From contig NC_054740.1 of assembly GCF_018143015.1 (NCBI RefSeq), forward strand, positions 43,045,180 through 43,109,179: DNA of 64,000 nucleotides, given 5' to 3'. Position numbers and translations under genes: made by a program. The stretch comes from Lytechinus variegatus. Its lineage: Eukaryota > Echinodermata > Echinoidea > Temnopleuroida > Toxopneustidae. Position 1 is the first letter of the stretch, and each line of letters begins with the position of its first letter. Shown in pieces: positions 9,823 through 61,700 of the stretch. Under the pieces are notes generated by a model. That model ran no database searches and was not told the origin of the DNA. It saw nothing but the letters and a program-made list of their open reading frames with translations.

Positions 9823-10081
9823 TACTCTCTTAATTCCCGAGACTTAAAATTTAAACCTTATGTGAGACTTGTAATTATTTAAGTCGTAAGGACTTATTTT
9901 AGTGATGCCTTGATTTAAAATTTCTCGGACGTTCCGCGAAAACAATCGATGTTTTAATTCTTTTGGAAAGACTTAAAACTTTAACCAATCATATTGCAAT
10001 GAATTGGAATCACGTGACCAGAGCAAAACTTCCAACGCCGCCATAATTTCTCTCTCATAATGGCTGCGATCCCGGGCTGCG

Positions 10082-13000
10082 ATGGAAGAATATTTGACCA
10101 AAAGCGTTCCGGAGGACATTATTGCAAAATTAAAAGGTATGCTCGAAGTTATATATGTATAATGATGAATATGTTGATATTTATTTTATTGTGATTCGTC
10201 GTAGAAAACTTCTTAGAATCAGATGTTTTTGGTGTCACCATTGTCATTGACAACGTGATGTTAAACTTAGCCGCTTAGCGTTAGACTCTACCGGTACCTA
10301 ACCCAGGCCAGGAAGCTCCGGCCCGCGAAGCGGCTCCGTCCCGCTTCGCGGGCAGGAGCTCCCTGGGTTAGACTACTTTAGACTAGACATGATGTACCGT
10401 ATATTAATTTGTTGTGCATGTGTCCGGACGGGTTGTTTATCTGGGCAGTCAATTTTTAATAGTCATTTAAAAGTAACAGGCAATGCCTTTTATAATTGTT
10501 AGAACAAATATTAAGCAGAGATGCCAAGTTCAAAGACCAGCTAGGCCCTATGGGCTTTGGCTATGCGTGAGATTTTTTGTGAATCTGAATGAGATCACAG
10601 ACATTGTGTACAATGTATATAGGCCTATTATGGGGATAGGCTGTGTTAGTTGCGTGAGACAGAGATTTGAGGGGATGAACAAGAGTACAAAATGCTTGAG
10701 TCTCACACATAATGCGTGAGACTTGGTAGCTATGAAATAGGTCCAAGAACAGTTATTGAAAACAGCGCATAGAGTCTAGATCTACAAAAGACTACACTAC
10801 AGTAGTTTTTGTTAAATCAAACTCAAGAAGGCAGTTTCATTTTTTAATTTTATTCTGTCCCGACACCCACCCCCTATTCCTACATGATGAGCTACTACTA
10901 CGGCAGCCCGAACGCTTGACTGTAGTTGGCGTTCGTGGCAGCGTCCCAGCCGGCCCGGGGCTACACATGCATGCGTGCAGTCTCCTAGACCTTGGAATTA
11001 CACTCATTTTATGCGCACTTGGTCAATATGTTATTGTTGGAATTGGTATGATTTTTTTTCTGTGTGTGTACTAGACCTATCTACTAGATCTAGTCACTCT
11101 AGTGTAGTGAAATCAGCTGAACTCACTTGTTAGTGTTTTGGTATCACTTCAGTCAGTGGATTAGTCTAGTCTAGATTCTAGATCTAACGTTAGATCTTCA
11201 TGTATGGTCTGAAGCCCCTTGTCTGCGCATATACATGTAACTTCGCAATTCTAACAGTAACATCATAAAGATGCAACGGACACCATCATCTTTAAATCAA
11301 TTTTTGCGATACGTATGTCACTGAAAAAATGAGAAAAGAGGACTACTTTATTTTTCACTCGCATGCCTTGAAAATGCCACTTTCATGCAAAAAATCCCAA
11401 ACTGCATGTAAATTGTAAAGTGAATGAGTGGGCAGACAAGGGCACTGTCCTTTTTTGCGTCAAATTTACATCATCGCCTTTTCTGGTAAAAAATCACATC
11501 ATTCTTGTTCGCATTTTGATGAGATTTTCTGTAGATAGTACATAAAGTTAGATCTATTTCTGACATGTAGAGTAAACTACCCGAAATTCAACCGCTTAAG
11601 TTTTTCTGCAATATTTAAATGCGCTGCACCATATACATGGTTGTCCATCGCAGAGGTTCCGGCGCCCATCAGTACTCCCCTTGCGGTCGAATGCAGGCCA
11701 GCGGGGACTTGCATTTAACTTCGGCAGAACCGGAGGGTTTGGGTTTTTTATTTGTTTTTCGCCAATACCATCACCCTCGGAGCTTGCGATAAATGAAAAT
11801 CTTGTCACAAACTGCAGATTTCTTTATTTTTTGCGCATTTTTTGCAACCATGTTTCTTAGCAGTATAAGCTTTGGAAACATTGGAAATAGGGTGCCTATT
11901 TTGCATAAATTATGAAACCAAAATGATCAAAATATGGCCTTTATGTGGATTACGGGACTTGTGAGTGACATGTCTCTAGACTAGTGTGTATTGAAGTGAT
12001 TTGCGTGTGTTGTGGAGCAGCATGACACATTGGTTAGATTAAAACAAATATGCCATGCTGTTTTCTTTTTTTTACCTTACTATAATCAAATAACAACTTA
12101 AAATAATCATTTATTAGAATACTATATGAGGCACACAATCCCAAACGTAAACATGGTAAATGTTATTCATTAATGCCTTTTTAGTAAAGAGAGGAAGGGA
12201 GTTTTTTTTATCTGTAATTTGTAAAGGAAAAAAAGTAGTTAAACAAATTAATGACATTCATTTTAAATCTAAATACAGGAAGTGCTCTATTGTGATGGAG
12301 AAGGGTTCCTCCAAACTTGTCTTAAGAACTCCAGAATGTCACAGCAACAGGAGAAGAAAATGAGGAAACCGAAGAAGACCAGCGATGAAAAAGAAGATGA
12401 AGCAGGTATAGATGATGCACTATTGGAAGACACTGATGCAAAGAAAATGGTAAGCCCTTATTAACAACAGGGTCAGTAGCGGGGTGAATATTCTTCCAAA
12501 AAGCTGCTTTATCACTTGATAATTTTGCACTTCGCTATTAAAGATTTTGAAACCTAATGAAATAGGATTGTGGAAGATTTTGATCTAATCACAAAAGCAA
12601 TTTAGGAACATCAATTTTCTCGAAGAATATTCACCCTGGCCCAATGGAAATTCATTTTGCAGGATTTTCTTTTTAAGAGCCAAATCTCGTAACTCAGTTA
12701 CTAAAGATGCAGCTGCAGAAAACCTAGTATTTTAACCAAGCATATGCTGACCCTAGTTACTTGGAAATCAATCAACTCATGTTTAATACCAATCAATACA
12801 ATTTGTATGGTAAATCTGATTCCCCTTCTAACTTAAAAACCCCATGCTATCCATCAAACTGTAAGAATTAAGTTTTTATTATGCTTTACTACCTTGTGAT
12901 TCTGAAGATTATAAGTGCTTCTCTCCCCGCCTATAGTTATATTGGTTCATATCTACCGTATTTTGACTTTGTAGGTTGAATGAATGAAGTATGCCAGCCC

Positions 13001-15219
13001 AACCAAAGAAAACTTACCAACAATAAGAAAATACTTTCAGCGAACTTATGAGTATCGGCAGGCACAGGTCAAAGGGGAACTCTCTATTACCGAGCTCATA
13101 GACCTGTATCCATGATACAAGGATTAATCCAACTTGGTAAGAAACATAGATGGTTCTGTAGAATGTGCCAATTAGTTTATTATACAGTTTATACCCCCTG
13201 ATGTACATGTAGTGCTTTAGAAATCTGTATCATATAATGTGGACATCTACAATTTCTTTATCATTATTTCACCTTTTAAAAAAATCTACAACGTACCAAA
13301 ATGTTTGCAGAGTAGGCAGAGCCACTGCATTCATTAAAAGTTATTATGCAAAATTGAACCTCTCACTTTTTTTTGCTGTGCACTCTTGCAGCCAATCACG
13401 TGGTAGTGTGTGAGTTGCTAACTTGATGCACTGCACTATCACATCACAAAAAAGTTGTGAAAGGAGTGGAGGATTTTACTTAGGCAATTCCTTGTGAAGG
13501 AATACAGCAGTCGATTGCTGGAAAGGTACTTCATGATTTCTAAGGATCCAAACTTTAACCATTAGCTGAAACATGCATGGTCTTCCCATTGTCAGACTTT
13601 GGCATGGCTTCTCCATTTTTCAGAGACTGTGCCTAAAAAACATGTCTCCAATTCAAACACACTCCTGTGTTGTGCAAGCATGCCACATTGTCCCAATCTC
13701 TACCTTGGCCAGGCAGGGATATAAGTTTGCGGCACCCTGCGTAAATCCATTTGGATTCTCACAGAGGAGTTTTGCGCGAATCCACAGATAATCATGAAAC
13801 GGTGGTATTAATTAGTTTGTGTTTTATTTTATTCCAGATCAATGTTGAATTTGCACTTATGTTTCCTAAGGAGTCTGGGAATTTTCTGAAAAAATGGGGG
13901 ACTACCTTCAGGGAGATCATCACCACTGCCAAGGAGGATTATGCTACAATACAACAGGTCATGAAAGATGAAGCTTCTGACAGTAAGCTGCCATTTTTTA
14001 TGTTATTAAAACTGCCAAAATTGGAACACTGATGTGATCAAACATCATGAAATATGCATCCAACTTAGGAATGTTGTGTCACTTACTTGCATTCCAGCCA
14101 GATTTGCATTTTCATTAGTGTACTTTTTTGAAATTGAATAATTAGGAGGTTGTTTTCATGTTTTAATTTTAATTAAATCTTGTTGTAGTGCAAATGCAGT
14201 AGACTTACTTTTTTTTTCACTGGAGTGAATTGTGCCTTTGTCAGGTAACAATGAACAGCTTGCAAGGCTTAATTGGCGGGTCTTGTGAGTTGGATATCTT
14301 ATATGTATTCAGAGTTTCAGCGATTTCATCACTTGACCTAAACTCTTAGGCAAGCTGTGTGCATCCGTAAGAGACCAACGTTGTGTGATGTAGACCAACA
14401 AAATCACTCGAATTCTGAATGCACCCTTTTAAGTGGCTTTAGCTGAGCTTTCGATTGTAACAGTCTTTTTCAGTTCTAGACCTCAAAAGAACTCCCGCTT
14501 CATTTGGCAAAAGTCTTTTTGTTGGATATATATCTTGTTTATTAAAAACGTCCATTAAACTCAATTTTTTTCAGATCGAAATATCAAAATTTTCAGCACG
14601 AGCTTCGCACTCGCATCTATTTTTTTTTTTAGATACCCATCTTAATCATTGGTAGCAAAAATGCTCAGAATATCAAGTTTTCAGATCAGAATATGTAAAG
14701 AAATTGTGTGGGGAGCTCTAGGCGAATGATGTCAATATTCAGAGATGCCAGTCTTCAATAGGATTCACCGTACAGGGTTGGGGTTTTTTGCATTTCAGGT
14801 TTTTGAACAGTAATGACTGGCAGCTCTGAATATTATCCTGTTATTAGACCAAATTAAGGCGAGTGATAAAAAGCTTGCTGCAAATGACAAGGCCTGATAT
14901 ATTCCTTTGCTGAAATAGATGATGGATATGGTTTTTACTGATTTCTTTAAATTTGTAATATTTCAGGAAGGAACTGATTTGAGGATGACAGCTGGAAATG
15001 GAGAAAATGTTCAGCCAACCTTTCCTTTTGAAGAAGAGCAAGCGACACTACTTGGTGTTGGACCAAAATGTCCTTGTGGCAGGTGATACCTTTGTTGATA
15101 CATTTGACAGGCTCTTCAAAGCCCATTACTGTTTCGATGTCCACTTTGCCCAAGTTTTGGCACCATTTAATGAATATTTAGCAGCCTACATATATGGGGT
15201 GTTCACCCATCCAAGGTGA
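10082..15219 (+). pseudogene. Broken gene of a multi-copy uncharacterised SAM-like (SAMD3-like) animal family
   Basis: Four coding pieces are visible. The first is an ATG exon, 10082-10136 (MEEYLTKSVPEDIIAKLK, donor GTATGC), resembling the start of a SAM-type helix bundle. The second is 12279-12448 (GEGFLQTCLKNSRMSQQ, then a charged Lys/Glu linker ending DTDAKKM). It splices in phase 0 to the third, 13838-13982 (INVEFALMFPKESGNFLKKW ...), typical of the family's middle domain. The fourth, about 14967-15219, gives HYLVLDQNVLV, DTFVDTFDRLFKAHY and YLAAYIYGVF, the family's C-terminal domain. Exon 1 (phase 1) does not join exon 12279 (phase 0), and 13982 (phase 1) does not join 14967. The last piece also changes frame near 15020 and reads TGA at 15217. 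Missing exons or decay are therefore likely. These proteins are widespread and multi-copy in fish and marine invertebrates, with no known function that I can name. The gene lies just inside the inverted repeats at 9823 and 19401. Confidence 0.55.
10298..10371. repeat. Strong GC-rich hairpin
   Basis: CTAACCCAGG at the left pairs with CCTGGGTTAG at the right; inner arms GGAGCTCC-like and CCCGCGAAGCGG / CCCGCTTCGCGGG also pair. It lies in the intron after the SAM-like first exon. It may be a small foldback repeat. Confidence 0.7.
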
Positions 15220-15504
15220 GACCTGCAGTGCGCTCACTTGCATCAGTTATTATGTCTGATCAGTACTAGTAATCCGTACAAACTGAACCCTCTTCGTGTT
15301 AGACCAAAATGTTATAATTTGATCATCACTAAATAGGCAGGCCAATTCACAACGTGAATTGATATAGGAAAGTACTGAACACAGTACAACTGCAGCAGAC
15401 GCAGCTTCTGTCTTACGCAGCTTCTGTCTTACATGCGCATCAGTGTCTATGATGTACGTGTGAGTAGGATTACCTTGCGCACAGATGAAGAAAAGCCTCA
15501 CATT

Positions 15505-15596
15505 TCCTGCCTGTTTAGTGATAATCAAAGTAGAGTAGGAGGTGATGGCTTTGTTGAATTATTTGACAGGCTATTAGAAGCCCATTTTGTTGTTTT
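15505..15596 (+). pseudogene. Tandem decayed copy of the SAM-like gene's last-exon domain
   Basis: The frame reads GGDGFVELFDRLLEAHFV, a diverged repeat of AGDTFVDTFDRLFKAHY at about 15080-15130; the DNA (TTTGACAGGCT...AGCCCATT) is also recognisably similar. It is cut off at a TTAA where a foldback element begins (15599). It shows a local duplication of the last exon, later broken by insertion. Confidence 0.6.
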
Positions 15597-15598
15597 AA

Positions 15599-16170
15599 AG
15601 GGATGGTCCGGGTTAAAAATATTTATACATGTATCTGAATACATAGAGTAGAATTCATTGAGAAAAATGCCGAAGATTTCATCAAAATCGGATAACAAAT
15701 AATAAAGTTATTGAAGTTTAAATTTCAGCAATATTTTGTGAAAACAGTTGTCATGGTTATTCATTAGGTAGGTTGATGATGTCACATCTCCACTTTCCGT
15801 TTTCTCATGTTATTAAATAAAATCATATTTCTTTCATTATTTCATACTTGTGTGAATCTCCCTTATAATGAAGTTGCAGCAATAAATATCTAATGCACAG
15901 AATCAGTTATCCACTTTTTCTAGTTCTTGGTTGAAAAAATTAGAATAAACCTGATTTTATATAATAAAATACAAAAGAACAAGTGGAGATGTGATATCAT
16001 CAGCCCACCTAATGAATATTCATGACGATTGTTTTGACAAAATATTGCTGAAGTTTAAAATTCAATAACTTTGTTATTTGATATCCGATTTTGATAAAAT
16101 TTTCGGCATTTTGCTCAGTGAATTCTACTCTATATATTACGTTTACATACTTTCAGCCCGGACCATCCCT
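15599..16170. mobile_element. TTAA-flanked foldback element 1
   Basis: The 572-bp element starts AGGGATGGTCCGGG and ends CCCGGACCATCCCT, with TTAA at 15595-15598 and 16171-16174. Complementarity continues deep inside both arms (for example ATCAAAATCGGAT against ATCCGATTTTGAT). It has no ORF of note. The termini fit a TTAA-targeting non-autonomous DNA element. Confidence 0.85.
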
Positions 16171-16174
16171 TTAA

Positions 16175-16760
16175 AGGTCAAGTCCACCTCAGAAAAATGT
16201 TCATTTGAATCAATAGAGAAAAATCAGACAAGAACAATGCTGAAAATTTCATCAAAATCGGATGTAAAATAACAAAGTTATGACATTTCAAAGTTTCGCT
16301 TATTTTTTAACAAAACAGTTACTTGAACGAGCCAGTTACATTCAAATGAGAGAGTCGATGATGTCACTCACTATTTCTTTTGTTTTTTATTGTTTGAATT
16401 ATACAATATTTCAATTTTTACGAATTTGATGATTGGGACCTCCTTGCCTGAAACACAAAATGTTAAAATAATGGAATTCCATGTGTTTAGGGAGGAATGA
16501 AACTTCATTTCTCATGACAATGACGAGAAAATAAAAATATTTCATAAAATAAAATACAAAAGAAATAGTGAGTGAGTGATGTCATCAGTTCCCTCATTCG
16601 CCCGAGATGTGCATATATCTGTTTTGTGAAATGAAGCGAAACTTTAAAATGTCATAACTTTCATATTTTACATCTGATTTTGATGAAATTTTCAGTGTTA
16701 CGCCTGTTGAATTTTTCTCTTTTTATTCAAATCAAGTTTTTGTTGGGGTGGACTTGTCCT
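16175..16760. mobile_element. TTAA-flanked foldback element 2, abutting element 1
   Basis: The 586-bp element starts AGGTCAAGTCCACC and ends GGTGGACTTGTCCT, with TTAA at 16171-16174 (shared with element 1) and 16761-16764. The long internal arms are again complementary (TTTCATCAAAATCGGATGT and its complement). This is an abundant repeat type that I associate with sea urchins. Confidence 0.85.
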
Positions 16761-18114
16761 TTAAGGCCACATTCCCTAACCATAAGACTGATAACGAGGT
16801 CTGCCATGTTTACTGGAAATTTTAGCTGGTTTACACTTGTTGGATTTACAGTTTTTGAATACAGAAAGATGGAAATCATCTTGGTATATCAATCATTAAA
16901 GTTGTTTTATATGATAATTCTTCCAATTACTAATTGATTAGTCCAATTAAAATTGCACTACATGCGACTTTTCAGTAGCTAGCAGCCATTTTTATCAAAC
17001 ACTAGTAGAGTTTCCAGTTGAATTGCCAATTGATTTTATCTTAAAGAAGGGGGAGAAACATTTTTTTTTTTAATTACCCCTCGAAGGGGTAAAATGAAAT
17101 GCAGTTTATTTGACAAGTCATTGAAATAACTGTATGGTATATTTCACACAATTTTGATGAAATTTTGGTTCAGTATAGGAGGGTCAAAAAAGTTTTTACA
17201 TGTAAAAAAATTCAACCCAGCCCTACCAAAGTATTCATGAACACTCCCTCAAAATTTGTTGTAATCCGTACAAATATGCAGTTGATCCAAGTTAACATTT
17301 CCGCCAGTGTCAGGGACAAATTTTAACATGGATTAGGTTAGGTAAACTTTATCTCATTTTGATTTTGGATGTAACATTATAATGTGCCTCTATACAGTCC
17401 ACACTGCTGTTTTCATTGCATCTTTTTAGCCCCTCAACATATTTTTGCATTATATCCGGAATATGAAAAGTTCACGCCTGACGTTTGATAACCGAAATTG
17501 CGCAACATTTTATAAGCACGTCGGACCCAAAATTGCTCAAAAACATGATTTCATGTACAAATCCAATGCAAATTCTGTTTCTAGCCAAAATTCATAAATG
17601 AATCAATAATTTCATGTCGAAAAAAGAAATAAGAAATTTAAAACACAATAAAATACATAGGAACAAAAAAAAATTGATACCACCATTTTTGGGATGTACA
17701 TTTGATGAGAATGCTGAAAAGAGTGTTTAGACATAATTTAGCAGTTTTGGACCTGTATGTACAGATGTACAGCTGAATTCTAATTTCATGCATAAATTAG
17801 CAGAATTGAAAAAAAATTGAATAATTATGTAATTATACAATTTTTGAGATTACGTTGTGGAAAACGTGTATGCCTATTTACGTTGCGATCGATGGCCAAG
17901 ATCGGGGGGGGGGGGGGGCAAATATGCCCCCCACCCCACCCTGGGCTATGCAGTTTCAAAAAAGCCCATGTTATATAAGGTTAAGATAGAAGCTGATGAA
18001 CTGCAAAATTGTAATTTGGCAAGTGTGCAGATCTACTCAATCCATGAATACACCAAAAGTTTTAGATTCTTTCGATTTTTTGTTTTTTAGCTACAGGTAA
18101 TTTAACATGGCCAG

Positions 18115-18363
18115 TTAGCGGTTTCTGAGAACGTTGTAAATTGTGCCCAGTGCAGCGACTCTGACTGGCCTTCCTGGACGGGGGTCGTATTCCAAGCTCT
18201 CCTTGCCATGTTTGAATTCAGGCCACTTCTTAACCATTCTGTAGGAAGGGGCAGTATCTCCAAATATGGTCTCCATGTTCTTGTTGATTTCTGTTGGTGT
18301 TAAGCCCTTGAGACCAGGGCAACGGATGACCGCACAGTGCCAGATTTTGGAATTTTGTCCCAA
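18115..18363 (-). pseudogene. Mariner-type transposase N-terminal fragment
   Basis: The minus-strand frame contains GLTPTEINKNMETIFGD, APSYRMVKKW, EFKHGKESLEYDPRPGRP, the paired helix-turn-helix N-terminus of mariner/Mos1-type transposases. The catalytic DDD domain is absent, and the frame stops soon after the PRPGRP motif. This is a dead fragment. Confidence 0.85.
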
Positions 18364-19401
18364 ATCTCATGGTAAAAAGGGTTAAAAACCGATGACTAAC
18401 TATATATTTTTTAAATTAGCTGTACCTAAAAAAAGACGAGAAATGGCACTAACTATAAATGAATGAGAGGATCTGCACACTTCTGCCACAAACTCATTGA
18501 ACACCCTTTTACTGTAAAATGTTTTATGAGTAAATGGCAAGAAATCCTGAATTAGTAGGCCTGATTATTAGAGATTAGTAAATGATATAAATCCAAATGA
18601 TGTACATTCACTGATTGGATTGCTGTTGTTGCTTACTTGCATTTTGTACACACATCAAAAGATAGGGCAATTACTGAATTACCACAGCAAAAGGAAGTGT
18701 TGACCATAATTTTTGACCAATTTTACCATTTTACTTGGCATAAACTTCCACATACCAAAATACTTTGTAGTTTTTTATTATGCATCATCGGTTTATCTGT
18801 TTATATACCAATTTGAGCTATGAATTCGCAAAAAAATAAAATGAATCGTACAAAATATAGTTTTTGCTTTATAACTCGTAAACTATTTTATGGTCAGTAC
18901 TTTTGTCGTGGTAAGGCAGTATATAACAGATTGATATTGTAAAAAGGTAATGAACTGGTTTGAATTTGCATATGTTGGTTTATTGTGGAATTGAAATTCT
19001 ACATTATCTTATAATTGACTATTTCATGGAAAAATAAATGTTTATGAATTTGAAGTACTTGTATCGTGTTTCATTTGAAGTTCAATATTTTTAATTCTAA
19101 GAAGGACTTGAAAACAACCCTTACATGATTTGTTTTTATGTTGCGATTTACCATTCATATTTAAACCTGTAGAAAGACTTAAACTGCAGTAAATCCTGAT
19201 GGTACTTAAAAATGAATCCAGAAAGATTTAAATTTCAAGTCCAAACGACTTAAAATTTAAAACTTCTACAGACTTAAACTTTTAAGTCTAAGGATAGTTT
19301 TGTTTTTAAATCCAAGGGTTTTGTCATTTTAACCAGTCTCTCTTGGACTTAAAATATAAGTCTTTTGGACTTAAAAATAAGTCTTTGGAATTAAGAGAGT
19401 A

Positions 19402-51285: not shown

Positions 51286-51317
51286 TTTTCATGAAGATTT
51301 GCAGAAATTGAATCATC

Positions 51318-52475
51318 ACCTGCACAAAGACTTTTGAGATATCTCATCCCTCCAGACAAACTGATGGACAAAACGTACAAGGAACTAGTGGAGAAGTTGA
51401 AGGAACACTATAATCCTATCCCCAGTGAAATTGTGCAGCGATGCAAGTTCAATAGTAGATTCAGGCAGGAAAATGAAGGCATAGCTAACTACATGGCATC
51501 TCTTCGGTCATTAGCAGAGTTCTACAATTATGGTTCGAGTCTGGATACTATGCTCTGTGATTGGCTGGTGTGCGGTGTGAACGACGGCCACATACAAAGA
51601 AGGCTTCTGGCAGAGCGGGGACTGGATCTAAAGAAAGCTGTGGACATCGCATCAAGCATTGAGATGGCAGAGAAAATTTTTTCAAGATCTCCAAGCACCA
51701 CAATCAAAGGAGATCGTCAACAAGATTGCCCCTGGCAAGCCGAGAAACGGTACAGAGAATGCCAAGCCTTGCTCCGGGTGTGGTAAAACCAATCATGCAC
51801 CTGAGAAGTGTAAATTCAAAGACAGCAACTGCCAGAAAAAAGGGCACTTAGCAGCTGTGTACCTGAGCAAAAAGAAAGGAATAAAGCCTGTAGCCTCTGT
51901 AAAGCTGTAGATGAAGTTGATAAATTGGAACCAGAGGAAACATATGAACTTCATCGACTAACTGGGAAGACCAGTATGCCACCAATTACGGCTTCACTGT
52001 TCTTGGATAACAAGGAAAAGGAGATCGAGATCGACACTGGAGCATTGATTTCATTGATCTCTGAGACAATATTCAACAAGTTTTGGCTAGGTCAACAGCT
52101 GAAGTCAAGGAAAATAAAACTTCGCACCAACACACAACAGGAAATCGATGTAGTTGGAAGCTTTGATGTTGAAGTTACTACTGATGGAAGGAAAGTGCAT
52201 ACCACTCCTTGTTGTGAAGCCAGATGGCCCAAGTCTGAGGGGAAGGGATTGGCTGTATGTTGTTAAGTTAAATTGGAATCAGATCATGCAGGTCAATTTT
52301 GTTCAGCACTTGGATCTACAGAGCGTGATCAATGACCACAAAGCGGTCTTCAAAGATGAGCTGGGCACACTGAAAGGCATCACAGAAAAAATCAATGTAG
52401 ATAAGGGTGCCACTCCCAGGATTTGCAAGGCTTGTGTCGTCCCCTATGCTATGAGGAAATTAGTTACTGCAGTTA
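51318..52475 (+). pseudogene. Ty3/gypsy retrotransposon gag-protease fragment
   Basis: The Gag-like frame 51334-51675 reads LMDKTYKELVEKLKEHYNP, RFRQENEGIANYMASLRSLA and ERGLDLKKAVDIASSIE. After a frameshift near 51670 comes a zinc knuckle CSGCGKTNHAPEKC (C-x2-C-x4-H-x4-C). A protease region (51925-52260) holds LFLDNKEKEIEIDTGALISL, with DTGA as active site. Another shift leads to a pre-RT stretch (HLDLQSVINDHKAVFKDELG) that ends abruptly at about 52475, where copy A resumes. RT, RNase H, integrase and LTRs are absent. It is dead. Confidence 0.85.
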
Positions 52476-54086
52476 GCCCAGGCACTGACCGAAGAGTGGG
52501 ATGCACTGCCACAGAAGAGCATCAACAACTTTGTGGACAGTATGACCAGGTGTGTGGACGCATTGATCCTGGTCAGACAAGAGGAAATGGAGGAAGAAAG
52601 GAGGACAGTCAAGAGAGAGTCTGGAAGAGAGATGGTAGGAGTATGGAGGACGAGATAGATGAAGAGATTATAGAAGTACGGAGGACGAGATAGATGAAGA
52701 GATTATAGAGGAACGAAGAAAATTAGAGGAAAGCAGGGAGAGGGAAGAAGAGGAGAAGCGATTGGACGAAGATGGAAAGTGGCTAGAAGAGAAATAGAAG
52801 ATAGAAGAGGAGGAGAGATTAGAGGAAGAAAGGAGGAAGTTAGAGAGGAGGAAACATTAAGAGGCAGCGAAGCAGGAGTTGGTGAAGAGAAGACTGGAAG
52901 AGAGATTGGAGGAAAAAAGTGAGTTGAAGAATAGACTAGAAGAGGAGGAGAGACTTAGGGAGGAGATCAGGAAGATTGAGGAGAGTGCAGAAAGCAAGAT
53001 AGAAGAGGAGAAACTGGAAAGTAGAGTGGGACGAAGATGGAAAGTGGCTAGAAGAGAAACAGACTAGAAGAGGAGAGAAGATTAGAGGAAGAAAGGAGGA
53101 AGTTAGAGAGGATGAAACATTAAGAGGCAGCGAAGCAGGAGTTGGCAAAGAGAAGACTAGAATAGGAGAGATTGGAGGAAGAAAGTGGGTTGAAGAATAG
53201 ACTAGAAGAGGAGAAGGACAAAGATGGAAAGTGGCTAGAAGAGAAACAGAAGATAGAAGAGGAGAGAAGATTAGAGGAAGAAAGGAGGAAGTTATAGAGG
53301 AGGAAACATTAAGAGGCAGCGAAGCAGGAGTTGGTGAAGAGAAGACTGGAAGAGGAGAGATTGGAGGAAGAAAGTGAGTTGAAGAATAGACTAGAAGAGG
53401 AGGAGAGACTTAGGGAGGAGATCAGGAAGATTGAGGAGAGTGCAGAAAGCAAGATAGAAGAGGAGAAACTGGAAAGTAGAGTTGTTGAACTTGTAAATGA
53501 TACTAAATGCATTTCCATTAAACTTCCCGAGTGCCAGGGTGGACAGATTCAGATAGTAACTAAGGTTACCATAGCGACGTCATACTACGTCAAGACCAAA
53601 CATGGCTATACACTAAAAAGAGGATTCATAGACTCACACTACTCGGAGACGAGACCCAAGACTGCGAAGTAATTTGAACTGTGAGTTATGTATTTTTATG
53701 ATCTTCATGTATTTTATGTTTAAGAATACTTATATGTACATGAATGAATATTCATGTATTCCTATATATTGATATTTAATGCTATTATAATATAGTCACT
53801 GGGACAGTGATTTATTTGCTGGGGGGTAGCGTGAAGGAAACCCCTTTTTCATGAAAAGAAAATCTAATCTTGAAACAAAATATTTAGATTTCCAAAATTT
53901 TGTTTTTATCTGGAACTTTCGTTGTTTACATCACGCAACTGAACGCCACTATATAATATCCATAATCAAGCAATTGCTTCTCTTTAAAGAGATAGTTGAA
54001 TATACGATGATTACCTATGTCTTTTTTGTCCGCTTTTTTTTCCTTCACACTTTATAATATCTGTTCAAGATCAGTGAGTTCAGAAT

Positions 54087-58706: not shown

Positions 58707-61700
58707 TTAGAAGACGAGCCTATTGGAGGAGAGGCTTGGCCCTCCTCCACCCCCTCCCCCGCCGAGACCACACCCGCCAGGGGGGTCGTTCTTATCGTCA
58801 AAGTTCCTGGAGTAGAACGGCTTCGCTGTAGAGGCTGGCCGCTGTTTTCTTAAAGCAGCTTCACGGGCCTCAATCTCTCTTTCCTGCGAAAAATAACAAA
58901 GACACGAAGCAAACTGACAGAAAGATTTTACACATGAATGAAGCACAGATCCAAATTCCTATAATGTGATTTCTGAAAAGAAATTAGACGGGTTAATATA
59001 AAAAAAAAATATTTCCCTTTAAACATTGGATAATTCTTTTACCAATTTTATTGATTGACTTGAAAATACAATAATGACTAAATACAAGGGGTGGTATCTC
59101 AAACAAGTTAAGTCAGTGCTTAATACAGACAGTTCTATAAAATGCTAGGTTTTATCTCTTTACCTCATTCATTAAATAATCCAAAGAAAGACAATGTATT
59201 AGAGATTTCTTGGAAACCCAGTTCATACTTGCATAATGTTTTTACCATTTTTTTGTAAAAAAAATATCCTTTTTGAGAGATAATTTATTTCATTGTTAAT
59301 TCGTACTAGGTACTGTATTGCAACAGGCAACTCGAAAAGTGCTTGTGAAGTTCCGCCAGGGCTAACTTTGATATTGCATTCCCTCTATCATCAGAATAAA
59401 CTACATGCACATTACTCTTACCTGAATATAATGAAGATTGTCTTTTTGGATTGCATCTTGGAGATCTTTCCGCAAATGTTTCTCTTTCAAGACGGAAGGC
59501 ATGTATGAAGATGACGACGATGATGGCACAGCTTTCTGCATTACCGAATCAATAGAGTCACCACTCCCATATTCATCATCACACTTCCTATAAAACAGAA
59601 CATAAGCTGTGTCTCGTGGGAAACGCTGTGTAACCTTGCCAAAGGAGTCAAACCTGGAAGAAGTAACACGACTGTCATTAAACAGATACCATTTCTTGGG
59701 CAGATGATCTTCATCGGTCATTTCATTGGTTTTCGGATGGGTACCATCAACAGGGTTCCTTTCGCTCTTTTTCTGCCTCAGAAGCTGTCTCTGGATATCA
59801 TCAACATCGTCACATGCATAACAATAGTAGTGTCCGCTTTCAGATGACATCCCTGAGTGAACTATCACTGTACTGAGGACATACTGAACAGTCCTGTCAG
59901 AGTCTCTCTCTGTGGAACAGTGGGCAGTACCCATACTATTCTGTCGAGTCCTCTTTGTGCATGGTCCACCATGGTTCCCGTCCACACTGCAGTCACCATC
60001 GCAAGGATTCACATCCAGATGGAGAATTCTGGGATAGCGAACATCCTCCATGATCTTACATCGTCTCTGCAGTTTGACATCGTAGGAGAAGCGCAGGAGT
60101 GTGATGATCAGAATCTCTGGTGCATTGATAATTTCCAGAGACTTCTCAGCATCCTGCAAGCTCTGGCACTTGTCACAATGATACCTGTTATCTTTTACCA
60201 AGAGCTCTGGACTGAAGTAATGTCTCAGAAGGTCTTCAAGCGAAGTCTTTGTGGTGTTGGCTTCAGAACTGGAACCTGCCACACTCTGCACTTCACTTGT
60301 TGATCTGCTACCGCTATGAAGATCGGGTCCAACAGCAGCGGCTATGGCACTTGCACCTACAACACTCCGACTATCCTGAGCTAATTCCATGGCAGGATAA
60401 TCCGACTTCTCTGACTGCCTTTCTTCAGCTGGGGTATCACAACGTCCTCCAAGTAAATTTTCCCTTCCTTCTGTTCCAGGAAACCCAAGTGGCAAATCAA
60501 AAAATGTTTCCTTCCGACTCGACACTGTTCCACAATTCAAGCACCGGATGTGCGTTGCTGACTGTCCACCAAAGTGTTTCTCTACAATGCTCTCCTTTGA
60601 TGGTAATATATCATCTTTTTTCATCTTTGGTGACGACCATGATCTTGTCTGATTGTAGGATTTACTAGAGTCCTTGGCCATGCTGCCACTACTGCTGCAG
60701 GAGGCAGTATCTACTGAAAGACATGCACTATCAGTTGGATGACATGGCATCATGGAACCTGATAGAGAAAGAGAAGCTAGTGGGCCTGCACTAGATGAGG
60801 GTGAGCTGGACGAGGAATCGACAGTATCTGTTTCCATTTGCACATCACTTCTGTCAATACATTCCTATGGGTTAAGAATATGAACAAATGAAGAATTCAG
60901 TAAAAGAGCCTAAATTCAGTATAGGTTCAGATTCTAAGTAATACAACTGTAATTCTGGGAAGCTTTCATGAAATGACTTGTCAGATGTTGTATTTGGCAA
61001 TGTATGTTTTATTCAAACACAGGAACTGTGCTTGTCTAGTGATGGTAGCTCAATGCACCGGTGATGGTAGCTCGAGCTAAAGCCAGGGTAATAATAGCAA
61101 GCGCTTTGTATCCTCAGGCAAAAAGCGTTACAAAAATCCAGTTATTATTATTATCATTAATATTCTCAGAGAATATTTAATTCCTTGAATTCCAACTTGA
61201 CCCCACAGCACATAAATTACGTTTCTAGAATTCAACCAATAGCTACCTGATCATGTGCTTCAGGTCTCGGTGAAGAGGCTGTGGACGAGGATGGGGATGA
61301 AAGCGACGATGTGATGGATGCTGCCGCGTTCTTCATCATCTTTCTCCATCCCTTCTCCTCCTCATCCAGTCGGTCCAACAGGTACTTGAGGAACTCTGAA
61401 CAGTCCTGCTGAGAGCCAGGAGCAAACCAAGGGGGTCTTGACGCTCTCAGGAACTCCCTCGGAGCGTATGCTGCCCTCTGAAAGTACACAGAATGCAATG
61501 GATTAAAAAAAACAAGCCCAACCTACAAGCCCTGTGGGGCATACAAGTTCTCAGCTCAAGTGCTAGCTATGTATCAATCATTGGTCCACATTTTGACTGC
61601 CATGGTCTTAAACCTGTGTTGAAATCATAGGAAGCCTTTAAGTAAGGGGAATTACAACACCAATAAGTTATTCAAAAAATCCCACACCTCCCAACCAATG

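Follow-up and report, generated by a model that had tools for sequence, protein, structure and literature searches.

The closest described systems to the element reported here are the animal Pack-TIRs, in which non-autonomous transposon ends surround gene sequence and repeated transposition has produced multiple copies, as set out in the excerpted text of PMC8277862. For one of them, Ssk-FB4, the same excerpt gives the helper enzyme as unknown (PMC8277862). According to the excerpted text of PMC6431247, a review, DNA transposition becomes less efficient above 6 kb of cargo and no Pack-MULE of one particular study is larger than 7 kb.

Here we describe a family of DNA transposons, one copy of which occupies positions 9823-19401 of a 64,000-nucleotide stretch of Lytechinus variegatus DNA, referred to as the window. 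The family is recognised by its inverted ends, a TA duplication and clustered GACTTAAA motifs. Our favoured reading, to which we assign a probability of about 0.85, is that it consists of large (7-14 kb per unit) non-autonomous DNA transposons moved by a transposase encoded elsewhere. Like the animal Pack-TIRs, it has non-autonomous ends around gene sequence and a copy number raised by repeated transposition; it differs from them in that no recent parental gene was found and in units of 7-14 kb with several introns. Given the 7 kb ceiling for the Pack-MULEs of one study and the drop in efficiency above 6 kb in the excerpted text of PMC6431247, recent units of this size are notable. The window copy is made up of the following features.

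9823-9824, no strand: left copy of the TA target site, duplicate of 19400-19401; of the 9 complete copies, 8 have TA on either side.
9825-9837, plus strand: left terminal inverted repeat CTCTCTTAATTCC, from the end searches in genome and window.
9841-9977, no strand: left subterminal GACTTAAA/TTTAAGTC motifs, putative transposase-binding sites.
10082-10135, plus strand: first exon of the decayed gene (MEEYLTKSVPEDIIAKLK), with a GT donor behind it; each of the nine complete copies has it.
12279-12449, plus strand: second exon-like stretch, with many charged residues; broken or absent in some copies.
12984-13145, plus strand: exon 4 of the decayed gene, its end predicted from a GT donor; TGA at 13113-13115.
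13838-13990, plus strand: exon 5 of the decayed gene, its end likewise predicted from a GT donor.
14989-15219, plus strand: exon 6, whose frame is open in the window copy (FDRLFKAHY...), from copy comparison and assembly search.
15594-16175, no strand: short palindromic element nested in the family's units (inverted repeats I1 and I7).
16171-16764, no strand: second palindromic nested short element (inverted repeat I2).
18115-18366, minus strand: fragment resembling the first DNA-binding domain of the Mos1 transposase (HTH_48), below the Pfam cut-off.
19176-19375, no strand: right subterminal GACTTAAA motifs, at higher density than on the left by motif counts.
19387-19399, minus strand: right terminal inverted repeat, from the end searches in genome and window.
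19400-19401, no strand: right copy of the TA target site, from the junctions and unoccupied relatives.

Outside the element, the window holds open frames at 51295-52693 (plus strand) whose translation resembles gag-pol remnants of an LTR retroelement, and at 59401-60864 (minus strand) a 487-aa open frame resembling a ubiquitin-specific protease exon, which we take to be USP35/38-like. A search of the window against Rfam returned no match at gathering scores.

A 15-bp perfect inverted repeat had been claimed for the ends of the element, and TACTCTCTTAATTCC is indeed found exactly at 9823-9837 (plus strand) and 19387-19401 (minus strand). With up to two mismatches allowed, these two ends are its only matches in the window, where a mean of 0.21 is expected, and two matches were reached in just 2 of 100 shuffled windows. 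Extended past the 15-mer, left and right are identical at 22 of 24 positions. The left end CTCTCTTAATTCCCGAGACTTAAAATTTAAACC and the right end, read inverted, CTCTCTTAATTCCAAAGACTTATTTTTAAGTC are different from each other, and the same pair is found in all nine complete copies. Motif clusters near both ends, also part of the original prediction, are evident: the window holds 14 occurrences of GACTTAAA, compared with a shuffle mean of 3.8, and nine of them fall within 9841-9977 and 19176-19375. Across the nine full copies it is found 76 times in 3,780 terminal bp and twice in 89,711 interior bp, the terminal slices being 170 + 250 bp per copy, sizes picked after the motifs had been seen. These clusters are probably binding sites for a transposase.

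To place the ends genome-wide we searched an assembly of 869,567,369 bases in 33 contigs. TACTCTCTTAATTCC is found exactly at 21 sites (11 forward, 10 reverse), compared with 3 for the reversed control. As expected of transposon ends by the original prediction, 16 of the 21 form inverted pairs: eight of them, 8.7-14.4 kb apart, where our arithmetic from the exact-end search gives a chance expectation of about 0.002. A ninth pair lies on contig C3, one of its ends carrying one changed base. The five remaining exact sites comprise one end of this ninth pair, three right ends without a partner (on C4, C6 and C10) and one site on C18. Searches with the left and right ends, whose counts are lower bounds, identified at least 13 and at least 17 loci, respectively, the latter from 19 rows of which three are one broken end on C18. 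Sorted by their ends, twelve loci have both, one has the left only and five have the right only. The left-only locus (L051) is an ordinary family copy interrupted by an array of ~49-bp units; a tandem array of this unit length is present in both L050 and L051 (C1:4.00 and 4.10 Mb).

The nine complete copies are spread over seven contigs, with the same boundaries and with flanks that are all different. Over aligned columns they are 91.8-99.7 % identical to one another, and therefore moved recently; the closest pair, E8 and E9, differs by 0.29 % over the 5,808 columns present in all nine copies. Two subfamilies can be distinguished, one comprising E2 (the window copy), E4, E5, E8 and E9 and the other E1, E3, E6 and E7.

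Insertion at TA is apparent from the junctions, the single exception being E9 with CA on one side, and from unoccupied relatives, which were sought by joining the flanks and comparing them by script among loci retrieved from the assembly. A test for TA target duplication had been suggested for the element, and the duplication is seen in four copies (E1, E5, E6 and E4), for each of which a relative exists where the site is empty and TA stands once. E1 is inserted in another family copy, at a position where a single TA is found in both the window copy and L037; the host of E1 is 97.9 % identical to the window copy, and a short homology joins its left end to part of a third copy. E5 is inserted in a short repeat, for which three relatives are shown, one with TA and the others with TT and TG. 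E6 lies in a partly low-complexity repeat with one relative shown, carrying a single TA, and E4 in a palindromic repeat whose one relative, also with a single TA, is a weak match at 79 % identity. None of the loci retrieved offered an unoccupied sequence that spans the insertion site of the window copy. At least three family copies form a nested cluster at C1:4009261-4034340 (L023, L031, L032, L070), which contains a ~580-bp fold-back insertion and a left end fused through microhomology.

An inverted-end unit at unrelated sites, with TA duplicated relative to the unoccupied site, is what a cut-and-paste TIR transposon would show. Gene remains lie between the intact ends of the family; in a Pack-TIR the gene would be foreign to the transposon. 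Helitrons have neither inverted ends nor a target duplication, and a Helitron was excluded for an element that has inverted ends and a TA duplication.

Similar ends are not confined to the family. Searched as a bare 15-mer at up to two mismatches, the end shows no excess (3,129 sites against 4,577 in the reversed control), so the wider end class rests on motif-extended, variant and short-element searches. The end together with its first motif, at up to three mismatches, is found at 229 sites against 111 in the control, 26 of them exact and all of these family ends. A one-base variant of the end, TACTCTCTAAATTCC, has 28 sites against 2 in the control, with two inverted pairs 173 bp long. Short, inverted, TA-flanked elements with similar ends were found at L030 (1501-1680) and at L046 (1504-1743), the latter more diverged, with ends that deviate at several positions from those of the family. 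The exact end at C18:9757142, seemingly unrelated to the family, is similar to a short element from this end class. These short elements with TACTCTCTNAATTCC-like ends share with the large ones the tip of the inverted end and the TA flank, and some, by our reading, have GAYTTAAA-like motifs; they differ in being ~170-240 bp long, partly palindromic and devoid of a gene. The simplest reading is that one TA-inserting transposase serves short and large elements alike. Mariner elements typically duplicate a TA target, a trait not unique to the Tc1/mariner superfamily, and because of the TA duplication IS630/Tc1/mariner is the likeliest superfamily for the helper. Set against Tc1/mariner (IS630), the element has the TA duplication in common; no transposase was recognised in it, and no named family was matched by its ends.

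We propose that a helper transposase made elsewhere in the genome would bind the 13-bp inverted ends and probably also the clustered GACTTAAA motifs. The whole unit would then be excised and inserted at a TA, with duplication of that TA, presumably by cut-and-paste. The helper may be a TA-inserting enzyme of the IS630/Tc1/mariner type that also serves the short similar-ended elements, and the enclosed gene would either be a passenger of long standing or what is left of a gene of the ancestral element.

The start of that gene had been placed about 250 bp inside the left end, which agrees with a first exon at 10082, about 257 bp inside. Exon-like pieces at 10082, 12279, 12984, 13838 and 14989 recur in the copies, not each piece in each copy, and together the exons occupy the left half of the element. 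The TGA of exon 4 follows the same residues in seven of the nine complete copies, where the aligned match extends so far; of the other two, E4 is frame-broken ahead of the TGA position and E7 is without the exon. Assembly-wide, a TGA is present in 11 of the 12 exon-4 matches within the family, and the remaining match has different stops. E4 and E5 have a frame break in exon 5 in common, as E1, E3 and E7 do in exon 6. Because the stop is shared across copies, the gene was probably broken before the present copies spread. Variants among the nine copies comprise 36 amino-acid-changing and 3 silent ones, with 27.6 % silent expected without selection, in a count that takes columns against the window copy, where frame-broken columns of other copies may inflate replacements. 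On these 36 replacement and 3 silent variants, purifying selection on the carried gene was rejected. Silent changes (3 of 39, window exons 10082-15177 against the eight other copies) are scarcer than under neutrality (P = 0.002), a shortage that may stem in part from frame-broken columns. In its present copies the carried gene looks like a dead passenger.

As to its identity, the gene may resemble multi-copy SAM-domain (SAMD3-like) proteins. Pfam searches with the exon pieces, single or joined, gave no match to a SAM model, of which the decayed gene may miss part, and the exon pieces matched no transposase domain in Pfam. The gene query matched no solved structure. Two homologue searches of a 5.8-billion protein set, the second with the joined exon sequence, gave one match each, both to nameless ENA proteins. 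Among the literature matches listed, no paper dealt with this transposon family or with transposons that carry SAMD3-type genes.

Exon 6 (76 aa) offers the clearest view of relatives in the assembly, with 46 matches from 53 candidates scored. By position, the 19 rows at 75 % identity or more fall within the 13 left-ended copies, at 13 places that correspond to the 13 left ends; the match at C1:4.09 Mb is 18.7 kb from its left end. The other 27 rows lie outside the family at 25-46 % identity, 23 with E < 0.01 and four with E above 0.01. The best of these outside relatives reaches 46 % amino-acid identity and no parental sequence was identified in the assembly, an argument against the gene having been captured from the host recently. 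The outside matches include sets of equal score on different contigs. Dispersed SAM-like sets of this kind lie at C4:4175156, C19:19014216, C7:39725297, C1:74600774, C6:39903470 and C10:28147678, and at C1:3733558, C1:6824721, C1:49844817, C6:34436838 and C11:21834254. In one set the starts of exons 4 and 5 are 841, 841, 841 and 845 bp apart (C4, C19, C1 and C7), and those of exons 5 and 6 are 1974, 1973 and 1977 bp apart (C4, C19 and C6) and 1241 bp apart on C7. The outside matches to exons 4 and 5 are weak (E 0.35 to 9.6) and draw their credibility from order and spacing. Such dispersed, near-identical sets were probably copied as DNA with their introns, possibly by another mobile carrier.

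The proposal that this gene family spread as cargo, or as an accessory gene, of a large DNA transposon thus divides in two. A large DNA transposon without a recognised transposase does enclose the gene, and gene-family copies outside it look dispersed by DNA-level duplication. That the whole family spread as cargo does not follow: the copies inside the transposon carry a decayed gene, and the 27 outside matches are at least about 276 kb from any exact family end, which agrees in part with the refuting outcome named in the original proposal, SAM-like copies elsewhere without these flanks.

An alternative to movement altogether, in which short repeats lie independently at random distances or the segment is a segmental duplication without a transposon, is consistent with just the rearranged nested cluster at C1:4.009-4.034 Mb. 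We discount it almost entirely, given nine copies on seven contigs that agree in their boundaries but not in their flanks, and given the single-TA unoccupied relatives. The lack of a known transposase, part of the original inference, is supported here: none was recognised in the copies by open frames or Pfam. The longest open frame among those of at least 75 aa in the nine copies is 225 aa. In Pfam, five of the long frames from other copies had no match, and six pieces of the window gave no transposase profile besides the sub-threshold HTH_48 of 18115-18366 (E 0.0011). This fragment might be the relic of a mariner-type transposase of the element's own. The TA duplication, typical of mariner, would fit, as would the persistence of the segment in each of the nine complete copies and, about 6 kb in, at the right-ended C3 locus. 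Besides the complete copies it is present at five further family places, the C3 locus among them, and twice on C9. Its 55-aa peptide matches the query at 100 % identity in 7 of the 14 places within the family. The match, however, is 19.5 bits, under the Pfam cut-off of 24.1, no catalytic part was seen beside it, and one C9 relative has only 275 bp in common with the element (86-92 % identity). That relative is without a catalytic part in the 1.1 kb read, and the fragment was dropped as a transposase. We consider the relic improbable and take the fragment for captured debris, with its conservation leaving some doubt. An autonomous partner of the family was not found. Right ends without a left end occur on C4 (20158968), C6 (38749530), C10 (26109451), C14 (25961896) and C3 (27323600), and four of these five loci could be larger relatives with another interior. 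The interiors on C4, C6 and C10 differ from that of the family over the about 9.7 kb read, and profile searches of four longer frames from these loci gave no transposase, two being without any match. Beside the C6 right end, L047 (C6:38749230-38759200) has matches to DUF3987 (28.1 bits, cut-off 27) and, in another frame, to a C-type lectin domain (31.6 bits, cut-off 22.6).

Two further readings concern the origin of the gene. We lean towards a Pack-TIR origin, in which a host gene was picked up long ago and its parent has since diverged or been lost. A decayed, intron-containing gene between transposon ends is what such capture would leave, and multi-copy cases are known in animals from the excerpted text of PMC8277862; against it stands the absence from the assembly of a high-identity parent gene (best 46 %). 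Alternatively the gene is native to the transposon lineage, as its transposase or an obligatory partner, and what survives are degraded descendants of an autonomous element in which it was encoded, a reading compatible with present copies that are non-autonomous. The start close to the left end, exons spanning the left half, the presence of exon 6 once in each of the 13 left-ended copies with nothing above 46 % identity outside, and other family members in dispersed near-identical sets of constant exon spacing all argue for this origin. It is nevertheless unlikely in our view: no exact family end lies near the other gene sets, the exon pieces show no transposase domain and matched no solved structure, and the short elements have similar ends without the gene.

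The favoured reading of large non-autonomous elements with a helper encoded elsewhere leaves room for a broader speculation, which we regard as doubtful. The SAM-like family might mark large TA-inserting animal transposons of an undescribed group, with the SAM-like protein as transposase or obligatory partner; the dispersed sets would then be intact autonomous relatives with other ends, and single-copy relatives in other animals would be domesticated transposon genes. As it stands, the family is a recently mobile DNA transposon, unusually large for a non-autonomous element, that carries exons and introns to new sites. If other dispersed SAM-like sets also sit between transposon ends, a multi-copy animal gene family would prove to be mobile DNA, and the helper or native transposase could be found.
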